Origin: Marinomonas sp. THO17
GTDB taxonomy: Bacteria > Pseudomonadota > Gammaproteobacteria > Pseudomonadales > Marinomonadaceae
Length of the DNA stretch: 64,000 nucleotides
Direction of reading: 5' to 3'
NCBI RefSeq assembly: GCF_040436405.1
Contig: NZ_AP031575.1
Span: 3,089,501-3,153,500, forward strand
The notes under the pieces: model-generated
Databases searched by the model: none
Told to the model about the DNA's origin: nothing
The model's input: only the letters and a program-made list of their open reading frames with translations
Program-made: the position numbers and the translations under genes
Shown: positions 26,551-30,415 of the stretch, piece by piece
Layout: the number at the start of each line of letters is the position of its first letter
How positions within the stretch are numbered: the stretch's first letter is position 1

Positions 26551-28173
26551 TTAAGAGAAACGGAACTGAGAGATTTTGGTGTTCAACTCGTCTGCCATCT
26601 TGGCGATGGTATCGCTGTTGTCAGTGACTTGCTGAGCATCGCTTAAGACTTTCTCAGAAACGTGTTTTATTTCCATTAGGTTATGGTTGATGTCTTCAGC
26701 CACGCTACCTTGTTGTTCAGCAGCGGAGGCAATATGCTGACTGCGATTAGAGACATCATCAATTTGCGTCTGCATATCGCCTAACTTGGCAACGGCATAT
26801 TGTACTTGTTTGGCACCTTTTTCCGCATCCTGTGTGCTGCTGGCCATCGACTCAGAAGCGGCTGTGGATTGCTGTTGTAGTTTTTCGATAATACTGCGAA
26901 TTTCGACGGTGGATTCTTGGGTGCGATTCGCCAAGGATCTTACTTCGTCAGCGACCACAGCAAACCCTCGTCCTAATTCACCTGCTCGTGCGGCTTCAAT
27001 GGCGGCGTTAAGAGCAAGCAGGTTGGTTTGTTCTGAAATGTCACCAATGACACCCAATACAGAATCTATGTCTTTGGTTTGATTTAGCAGTTCTAAGATG
27101 ACGTGATTGGCGTTTTCAATCTGTCCCGTTAAATGTTGGATATCTGCATTTGTGGTATCCAGTTCTTGACTGCTCTGACGGGTAACTTGTTGAACCGTCT
27201 GAGTCGCATTAGCGGTATCCAAGGCATTTTGAGCGACGTCTTTAATGGAGTAGGACATCTCATTCATCGCGGTCGCCAAAGAATCCACTTTTTCAAACTG
27301 ATTGTTCATTCCTTGTTGGGTGTTTTGTGAGCGCGTACGCATGTTTTCACATACTTCTTTTAGGGCCAAAATAGAGTGTGCGAATTGCGCTAGGGTGGTG
27401 TTTAGAGAATGGGATACCGTATTGGATGCTGTGGTCAGTAAGCCAATTTCATCATTACGTTGCATGTTGAGTGACTGCGTCATGTCGCCATTAGCAATGC
27501 TTTGCAAATGTTGGGTAACCTTACTTAAAGGACGAGTAATATTGCGCACAATACTGATACAAAGAGCCAATACTAAACCGACAAGAATCACTTGAATAAT
27601 AATCGACCTTTGTAGGCTTGACCAAAATCGATTGGCTACTTCTTCATACAGAACGCCACTGCCAATAATCCAACCCCATTGATCAACCCCTTTGACAAAG
27701 GAAATCTTTTCCAATGGTGGGGCTGAATTAGGTGGCTGAAAGTAATAGCTAACAAAACCTTCACCGGCTTTTTTGACTGTAGACACCATCTTTTGCCAAT
27801 GATAAGCGCCGGTAATATCTTGGCTATTGAACATGTTTTTACCATCCAGCTCAGGTTTAATAGGATGCATTAAGATGTTGGCATCCATATCATTTACCCA
27901 AAAATAGCCGTTGCCTTCATAACGTAAACTGGCTAATGCTTTTAACGCTTCTTGCTGCGCCGCAGCTTCACCAATGACGGGAACTTGCTGAGTGTAAAAA
28001 GTGACTAATGAATGCGCGTTTTCAACTTGAGATTTCACCATCTCCTTACGTCCATTCAGTAAGTCTTGATAAAGCTGTTTATAGGCCAAACCTTCAAAAA
28101 TAATCAGAACGAATAGCATGGAAGCTATAATGATCCATAATTTATGGCCAATTTTTATTGAACTAAGAAACAT
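26551..28173 (-). CDS. Methyl-accepting chemotaxis protein with single Cache (sCache_2) sensor
   Basis: 540 residues. First membrane helix about 11-29; periplasmic domain with [28 protein letters not shown] and [13 protein letters not shown], the signature of sCache_2 domains; second helix about 188-208; HAMP; then the signalling domain with the hairpin tip [48 protein letters not shown]. Related sCache_2 receptors sense small organic acids; the ligand here is unknown. Monocistronic. Confidence 0.94.
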
Positions 28174-28216
28174 TGATACCTTCCTGTTATTTCAATTACT
28201 TGCATTTAAGCCAGAC

Positions 28217-28382
28217 AAGGTGCGAATAAGTCTTCTGAAAGACCGTAAGGGTGTGGTCTAAGCCCTCTTTATTCTTTGTTAAGCTTCTTGCCAATATGTT
28301 CAATATTGGACGGCGAAACTTGCCTCGAATAAAAGAGAGTTATTCACACGCCGTAGTCAGTGGACTTGTTCGTGCCTTCCTT
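28217..28382 (+). repeat. MITE-like repeat copy A, internally deleted
   Basis: Begins aaggtgcgaataagtc and ends gacttgttcgtgccttcctt, so the ends are inverted copies of each other. Apart from one missing internal block of about 100 bp it is the reverse complement of copy C at roughly 90% identity. The hairpin ccaatat-gttca-atattgg is kept. Confidence 0.85.
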
Positions 28383-28645
28383 AGGCTGATGTCGATGATA
28401 AGTGGCGGACATTATCAACTTACATCATGAATTTTACTTTTCATGCATGTTTATATTTATATTTAGACTAGGTTTATTATCGTTTATATTTATGATTATT
28501 TTATTAAATAATAATACAGATCAACGATTTGCATTCTCAATGAAAACCGCGAATATTTCAATGGTTTAGATATATTAACTAGAAGGGGGCGAGTAGAACC
28601 ATTGATTATGGCTCTGTTACTGCACTGTTGGGCGACATCCGCATA

Positions 28646-28787
28646 GGTCTTCTTCAGGCCTTGTAGAGAAACCATCTGTCTGTATTTATTAAGAGTGATT
28701 GTTATTACTATTCCATCTCACTCTTGCCTTGATAGAGGGCATCTATGATAGGACTGAAGTTCAGAAGACTTATTCTCACCATCCCTA
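28646..28787 (-). repeat. MITE-like repeat copy B, partial
   Basis: In the same orientation as copy C and aligns with its distal half (29272-29403): shared blocks include ttaagagtgattg, cttgccttgata and cagaagacttatt. Its outer end is degenerate and the other half is missing. Confidence 0.75.
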
Positions 28788-29136
28788 GTAAAAAATATAT
28801 ATAGGCTAATTATTATAATAGGACGAAAACAGAGGGTTATTATTTGAATTCGAATACTTCAATGGAAAGCACTTTGTTATATTTGTTCTTTCGCTGAAAT
28901 AATTGGATAGAAATATCCATTTCCATTCTAGTTTTATACCACATGAATCTCGTAAAGCAAATGTCATTACCAGTGAATAGGGGCTTTGAGAATAGCGGTT
29001 GTTTTCGTTTATTAAATGGCGTTGCTTTGTTTTTAGTGAGGTAAACAATCACTGGCAATGTTTCTTGGGTTGACCCCTGATTCATCATCAGGGCAATGCA
29101 AGGATACTCTTTAGGCTTCAAAGCTCATTGTTACTT

Positions 29137-29403
29137 AAGGAAGGTACGAACAAGTCCACTGACTTCAGCGTGTGGATAACTCTCTTTTATTCGAGGCAAG
29201 TTTCGCCGTCCAATATAAGCATATTGGCAAGAAGCTTAACAAAGAATAAAGAGAGCTTAGACCACGCCCTTCGGGTCTTTCAGAGAAACGGCCTCTCTGT
29301 GTTAAGAGTGATTGAAAGGTATTAACATTCCTGCTCACCCTTGCCTTGATAGGCCATTTCTCTGATAAGACTGATGTCCAGAAGACTTATTCGCACCTTC
29401 CTT
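29137..29403 (-). repeat. MITE-like repeat copy C, full length
   Basis: 267 bp bounded by 20-bp terminal inverted repeats, aaggaaggtacgaacaagtc and gacttattcgcaccttcctt, matching at 18 of 20 positions. Internal pairs agagaaacggcc/ggccatttctct and ccaatat/atattgg would fold it into a branched hairpin. It encodes no protein. No clean target-site duplication is evident. Confidence 0.85.
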
Positions 29404-29496
29404 TAGGGAAGTTTACCTCTCTCAAGGGCAAAATAGTTTTTGCTAAATCTCGATCAACTCGCATAATAGTCCCTCGGAAGGGGCCCACCAAGGTAA

Positions 29497-29531
29497 CTTT
29501 GTTTAAGAGCTTTGTTTAAGAGCTTTGTTTA
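29497..29531 (+). repeat. 13-bp tandem repeat upstream of the SDR gene
   Basis: ctttgtttaagag occurs 2.7 times in the 85 bp before the SDR start codon. Confidence 0.9.
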
Positions 29532-29581
29532 TCAGCGAAGAGGTGGGAGTCCATATCATTTCTATTATAAGGGTTAATGCT

Positions 29582-30415
29582 ATGCAATATTCTGTGCTGA
29601 TAACGGGTTGTTCCAGTGGTATTGGATTGGAAGCCGCACGCCTATTGCAGCAGCGAAACTTTCTGGTGGTGGCCAGTTGTCGTCAGCAAAAAGATGTTGA
29701 TGCTTTAAAAGCACAAGGCATTAAGCATGTGGTGCAGCTCGATTTAGCGGATCCAAATTCCATTGAGAAAGGTCTTGCCGCCACCTTGGAGATCACAGGT
29801 GGATACTTGTTTGCCTTGTTTAATAATGGTGCTTATGGACAACCTGGTGCAGTAGAAGATTTGCCTGTGGCGGCATTGCGAGAGCAATTTGAAGCCAATG
29901 TATTTGGTACTCACGATTTAACCACGCGAGTGATCCAGTTGATGCTGTCGCAAGGATATGGTCGCATCGTGCAAAATAGCTCAGTGTTGGGTTTGGTTGC
30001 CGCGCCATTTCGAGGCGCTTATAACGCCAGCAAATTTGCTTTGGAAGGGCTGACGGATACCCTGCGAATGGAGTTATATGACACGCCATTGAAAGTCAGT
30101 TTGATTGAGCCTGGTCCCATCGAGAGTCGTTTTCGTGCCAATGCTCTGCAAGCGTTAAAAGACAATATTGATATCACGGCTAGCCGCCATCAACAAGGTT
30201 ATCAAGAAGCCATTGCTCGTTTGAGCAAAGAAGGAGCGACATCGTCACACACTCTGCCAGCCAGTGCGGTGGTGAAGAAATTGCTTCATGCCTTAGAATC
30301 GCCGCGTCCTAAAGCTCGCTATTATGTGACTACACCCACCTATGCCGCAGCACTGATGAAACGGCTTTTACCAACCTATTTATTGGACTGGGTGATGCGT
30401 CGCCAAGGAAGTTAA
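29582..30415 (+). CDS. Short-chain dehydrogenase/reductase
   Basis: 277 residues from the ATG at 29582; upstream in-frame codons are not family-like. Cofactor loop TGCSSGIG at residues 8-15, NNGAYG near 80, catalytic serine in QNSSVLG and the YNASK motif with catalytic Tyr and Lys. Length and EPGPIESRF suit the classical SDR subfamily that acts on lipids or steroids, but the substrate is unknown. It overlaps the convergent hydrolase gene by 4 bp. Confidence 0.92.
   Translation: MQYSVLITGCSSGIGLEAARLLQQRNFLVVASCRQQKDVDALKAQGIKHVVQLDLADPNSIEKGLAATLEITGGYLFALFNNGAYGQPGAVEDLPVAALREQFEANVFGTHDLTTRVIQLMLSQGYGRIVQNSSVLGLVAAPFRGAYNASKFALEGLTDTLRMELYDTPLKVSLIEPGPIESRFRANALQALKDNIDITASRHQQGYQEAIARLSKEGATSSHTLPASAVVKKLLHALESPRPKARYYVTTPTYAAALMKRLLPTYLLDWVMRRQGS

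Follow-up and report, generated by a model that had tools for sequence, protein, structure and literature searches.

Between a chemotaxis-receptor gene (MCPsignal, sCache_2 and HAMP; ORF 26551-28173, minus strand) and a divergent short-chain dehydrogenase gene (plus strand, start taken at 29582), the genome of Marinomonas sp. THO17 carries three related hairpin-forming repeats. They lie in a window of 64,000 nucleotides (G000:C1:3089501-3153500; the genome, G000, is one contig of 3.92 Mb), and positions below are window positions unless given as genome positions. A first-pass annotation, made from the sequence alone, took the repeats for three copies of a MITE-like family. The locus raises the questions of what kind of element this is, what could move it, and why its arms remain able to pair.

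Three repeats in the window and the spread of the family

Copy C, the most complete of the three, is a 263-bp element on the plus strand (29139..29401) with termini GGAAGG...CCTTCC and flanks TTAA and TTTA. The annotation had given it 267 bp and terminal repeats matching at 18 of 20 positions, figures that hold if two flanking bases are counted on each side; in the element proper, the 16-bp terminal repeats match at 14 of 16. Its interior consists of two hairpin modules in the module map, X (29168..29267, plus strand; covarying helices 2-5) and Y (29280..29365, plus strand; helices 7-10), and a pattern match to TTATCCACA lies at the base of X (29171..29179, minus strand). Copy A (28215..28380, minus strand; 166 bp; plus-strand flanks CCAG and TTAG) is an X-only element. 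As had been claimed, it is the reverse complement of C with about 100 bp missing (about 97 bp, module Y), and its arms are complementary to C at 95% over 81 nt and 94% over 65 nt. Copy B (28652..28784, plus strand; right flank CTAG) is a decayed module Y with the right end, 74% identical to 29269-29401 of copy C. A second CTAG at 28579 marks its supposed left end, and we considered an intact 202-bp element; among the window's 856 YTAR sites, 118 do equally well as that left end, which is thus at chance level, so that "half a copy", the original description, is a fair one.

The statement that no ORF is encoded is right as regards long ones: among ORFs of at least 60 aa a single one, of 65 aa, overlaps copy C. 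We rejected outward promoters and terminators: the interval 28174-29600 has 8 promoter-like sites, compared with a shuffle mean of 4.6, in none of which the first hexamer lies inside copy A or C, and 0 terminators. Just upstream of the dehydrogenase gene, a 13-bp unit, CTTTGTTTAAGAG, occurs in three head-to-tail copies (29497-29535), the third 85% alike.

A BLASTN query of copy C plus a few bases of flank returned 50 matches in THO17 (E<=0.01), including 11 near-full-length copies besides C at 96-98% identity; pairwise identity among 13 X+Y copies averages 96.3% (range, 90.5-99.6%). Matches occur in 24 of 56 sampled genomes, THO17 included, and copy number varies among Marinomonas genomes. By our own count from the table, 23 of the 35 genomes within the genus match (including THO17), two of them weakly; outside the genus, the 56-genome sample gave one weak match of 70 bases. 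All 19 named-genome stretches containing an exact 20-base pattern are from Marinomonas. Across the order, a subfamily II copy matched 8 of 293 genomes and 1 of 118 genera (E<=1e-6), in a search that took in 13 Marinomonas genomes, and no family copies matched in the plasmid and phage collections. Single occurrence, which the annotation had named as grounds for abandoning its reading, is therefore not what is seen. Of 20 THO17 elements, 6 overlap an ORF and 14 lie in gaps, flanked by tandem ORFs in 7 cases, by divergent ones in 5 and by convergent ones in 2; the ORFs are unchecked mechanical calls of at least 100 aa, so intergenic placement is only a tendency.

IS5-type ends, target sites and a presumed helper transposase

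Most THO17 copies end in GGAAGGTRCGAACAAG and GGAAGGTGCGAATAAG. The ends of E. coli K-12 IS5A, a member of the IS5 subgroup of the IS5 family, are GGAAGGTGCGAACAAG and GGAAGGTGCGAATAAG, and the family shares these 16-bp ends down to the T/C difference between the two. In copy C the left repeat, GGAAGGTACGAACAAG (29139..29154, plus strand), matches the first IS5A end at 15 of 16 positions, and the right repeat, GGAAGGTGCGAATAAG (29386..29401, minus strand), matches the other at 16 of 16. The relation of the ends to a transposase substrate, on which the first-pass reading had been made to depend, is borne out. Unlike E. coli IS5, the family elements lack a transposase gene, and their interior is not similar to that of IS5. 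Within the 46-copy alignment described below, the terminal inverted repeats form helix 1 (columns 1-16 with 268-283; 96.2% paired).

IS5 inserts at a 4-bp target, YTAR. Pairing of ends in the fetched loci gave 88 rows; three were repeats, arising where loci overlap, and without them 85 elements remain. In 54 of the 85 the 4-bp flanks on the two sides are identical, mostly YTAR, compared with a mean of 19 and a maximum of 32 when the right flanks were shuffled 2000 times; the flanks of the other 31 are not identical, and YTAR stands on both sides of 62. The family and many Marinomonas IS5 copies share the YTAR target; the single IS5A copy retrieved from E. coli lacks it, its flanks being unlike (ttat and ctcc). 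Of 14 predicted empty sites built by joining flanks, 5 were searched for in 48 genus genomes, at most six candidates being scored in each. Two sites, L002 and L006, gave continuous matches across the junction in G004, G009 and G032; in the aligned empty sites the target is present once, about one base off the prediction at each. For L002, unaligned matches in G030 and G033 likewise span the junction, at 70-73% identity, and for the other three sites the 48 genomes held no junction-spanning match outside THO17. The annotation's expectation of dispersed copies with empty sites thus agrees with the 50 matches and two sites empty in relatives.

The family therefore has the features of a MITE (less than 500 bp without a transposase gene, inverted ends, target duplications, many copies and empty sites) and those of the IS5 subgroup (IS5-like 16-bp ends and a 4-bp YTAR target). 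It is a non-autonomous MITE of the ordinary kind, and among the matches listed in the open-licence literature no paper describes a MITE from Marinomonas. Judging from sequence, the elements very probably form a Marinomonas MITE family with modular palindromic arms that owes its movement to an IS5-subgroup transposase acting in trans. Such a DDE transposase, supplied by an IS5 relative elsewhere in the genus or by one since lost here, would bind both element ends and insert the element at YTAR, and the element would remain mobile when a palindromic arm, X, Y or Z, is gained, lost or swapped for another.

Is there a candidate helper? PF05598 is present in 33 of 56 genomes and has no match in THO17; the E. 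coli control genome gave no match either, which makes this search weak on its own. The sole PF01609 protein of THO17 lacks PF05598. The transposase of a Marinomonas IS5 relative (L078), 72% identical to InsH1, matched 10 of 13 chosen genomes in a protein search (E<=0.001), with no match in THO17, G004 or G019; G019 has 17 MITE matches despite this. InsH1 itself matched 24 of 48 genus genomes at a strict E<=1e-100, THO17 having no match at that threshold. A cognate transposase in the same genome, though not required for past mobility, was accordingly not found in THO17 by these searches, and mobilization in trans, as first proposed, fits this result together with the lack of any ORF above 65 aa.

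The IS5 copies of the genus carry ends with 1-5 mismatches to the family ends. We fetched 35 IS5 end pairs from the genus (36 rows, L088 having been read a second time spuriously). GGAAGGT stands at neither end in any of them, and the nearest end has one mismatch. We rejected an origin of the family by deletion within a Marinomonas IS5, since the two have no common interior: across 91 IS5-bearing loci (a number that includes the E. coli locus and overlapping loci), the only similarity to the MITE interior was one neighboring MITE piece. A long-range end pair in THO17 (genome positions 3855053/3856988) was likewise rejected as an autonomous element, because the long ORFs that it encloses are by eye not transposases. 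In G010, an IS5 relative and a family member lie tip to tip with CTAG between them (L142, around 2550-2700).

Interchangeable hairpin modules

The family is modular: hairpin blocks X, Y and Z occur in at least six arrangements, each found with an identical target duplication. THO17 elements range from about 50 to 362 bp. In the block mapping of that genome, the X+Y form measures 262-264 bp, and several copies have an identical duplication. The X+Z+Y form occurs at 313 and 279 bp (identical duplication CTAA at 1342947), and a 354-bp copy also maps as X+Z+Y with its left part unmapped. Two 362-bp elements are Z+X+Z+Y, with duplications at 1185606 (CTAG) and 1415979 (CTAA). Z+Y elements are 210 and 198 bp (TTAA at 3074034); Z-only elements are 108, 112 and 124 bp, and in part one of 98 bp (TTAA at 2856296, CTAA at 3329556). 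X alone is found at 139 bp and in copy A, and in G009 two X-only elements have identical duplications (L136, TTAA; L137, CTAA). Among eight end-only forms of 50-64 bp, identical YTAR flanks occur at 2341789 alone; the remaining ones may be deletion scars or chance. This account omits the nested 88-bp readings, which begin at an internal GAAAGGT, as well as the truncated copy at 1218104 and the pairings at 1449621, 2318971 and 2339059, all three of which we judged to be chance.

Three smaller observations concern this architecture. An 88-bp form in THO17 (L028; genome positions 3720529-3720616) runs from an internal pseudo-end of module Y and is flanked by CTAA and TTAA, as if the inner end had served for transposition. 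At L060, around 2480-2510, a tiny scar in which TTAAGGAAG is followed by the end ...CCTTCCTTAA, between two TTAA copies, looks like an internally deleted element. In copies from G026, G017 and G006 (L044, L131, L132 and L133), the base of module Y carries an insertion of 15 bases common to them.

Composite small repeats are known from other bacteria. In Streptococcus pneumoniae, the BOX element is described as a modular repeat with ends likened to those of ISSpn2 and a middle module that folds largely independently and may be absent or repeated (PMC3049150). BOX is the closest functional counterpart of the family, although ends, host and modules differ and X, Y and Z stand in unlike combinations rather than in a tandem array such as that described for boxB. 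The Correia/NEMIS elements of Neisseria are hairpin MITEs in two length classes, 107 and 155 bp, set apart by a single internal block (PMC2229807). Length classes set by an internal block, hairpin and MITE character are thus alike in the two families, whereas Correia/NEMIS has 24-bp ends with terminal TA and the Marinomonas family 16-bp IS5 ends and the YTAR target. Other bacterial MITEs, ERIC among them, are small, numerous and strongly folded (PMC10969869). The Marinomonas family is likened to them by that description, in size, copy number and fold. The ends of ERIC appear to differ from those of the family.

Why the arms keep pairing

Alignment of 46 of the 66 distinct long copies (the 20 left out are mostly close relatives of rows kept) gave a consensus structure of 62 pairs, 26 of which changed on both sides. 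Pairing holds in 95.7% of the paired cells, against 87.5% in shuffled and 36-44% in slid versions, and the covariation score, 0.256 in the alignment, falls to 0.118 on shuffling and to 0.069 at most on sliding; the structure was taken from the same alignment, so comparison with the slid versions favors the real structure. The rows fall into two subfamilies (16 and 30), and the structure of one predicts Watson-Crick pairing in the other at 70-84%, compared with 22-34% slid; of the pairs common to both, the majority have not changed, and 6-15 have a difference on each side. Changes lie mostly between the subfamilies, so that independent events are fewer than cells. As first noted from copies A and C, the stem ccaatat/atattgg is kept and its loop changes: four of its pairs persist in 44-46 of the 46 copies. 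Folding z-scores (-5.7 for DNA, plus strand; -9.5 and -7.7 for RNA, minus and plus) are beyond chance, and with the 50 genome matches they uphold the description of a hairpin repeat family.

What is it that folds? Selection might act on a putative transcript whose fold affects neighboring genes through stability or attenuation, as proposed for other MITEs, with mobility secondary. The strong covariation of the arms and the RNA z-scores are in keeping with this, as is a modest lean to the minus strand, seen in the consensus fold (-49.7, against -35.8 for the plus strand) and in the union of both strands' pairs, where by our own derivation 255 exceptions are G-U and 350 A-C. Against it, in the 28 strand-neutral pairs (present on both strands with G-U disallowed) exceptions are 25 G-U and 26 A-C; the interval 28174-29600 has no terminator-like site; and Rfam returned no match at gathering scores in the window, nor any above gathering for a full subfamily II copy (L039) or a partial THO17 copy (L022), apart from one chance-level snoRNA hit. 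We regard a transcript as a somewhat doubtful cause. The near equality of the two kinds of exception leads us to infer that arm pairing is kept mainly at the DNA level rather than through a single functional RNA, by a cruciform or palindrome function or by hairpin-templated correction. The remark that a stem kept with a changed loop is expected if folding matters therefore stands as to covariation, and the data do not show RNA to be the molecule that folds.

In hairpin-templated (quasipalindrome) correction, replication copies one arm onto the other, and covariation could then arise without selection. We consider this possible, a little more so than a transcript. The strand-neutral pairs, free of strand asymmetry, agree with it, and so does a THO17 copy (genome positions 2874046-2874184) whose apical stem we read as replaced by a long perfect palindrome, with TTATCCACA kept; unpaired columns inside the arms nevertheless persist in both subfamilies. 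A REP/RAYT-type element, mobilized in single-stranded form through a Y1 (TnpA-REP) transposase, would also be palindromic and present in many copies. The 4-bp target duplications and IS5-type inverted ends contradict it, and the REP-like block Z, which we had considered as an independent repeat, is by our own reading inside a family member or next to one in 15 of its 16 occurrences; we find this explanation scarcely credible. An IS5-subgroup MITE with modular arms is the reading that we retain.

One motif in the arms deserves separate mention. TTATCCACA, which we take to be a perfect DnaA-box consensus, occurs at 78 sites in THO17, against 29 for a reversed control pattern; 20 of the 78 (own count) lie inside full or partial family members. 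The 9-mer is exact in 36 of the 46 aligned copies. It is not the most conserved motif, being only about the 16th best 9-mer, and its role in the family is a lead that we noticed after the fact. An improbable extension would make the family a cassette-like MITE, with IS5 ends around interchangeable, selected hairpin arms, in which the DnaA box links DnaA to transposition or to the local control of replication and the dispersed copies act as DnaA-binding sites.

The first-pass annotation had not recognized that the ends are of IS5 type, that the target is YTAR or that the family is modular. Marinomonas has with this a small-repeat family of its own that is useful in annotation and strain typing; its target rule is defined, and the IS subgroup that probably mobilizes it is indicated. 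Its two deep subfamilies and swapped modules open a direct way to ask why MITE arms stay palindromic, with RNA function, DNA structure and templated correction as the candidate causes.
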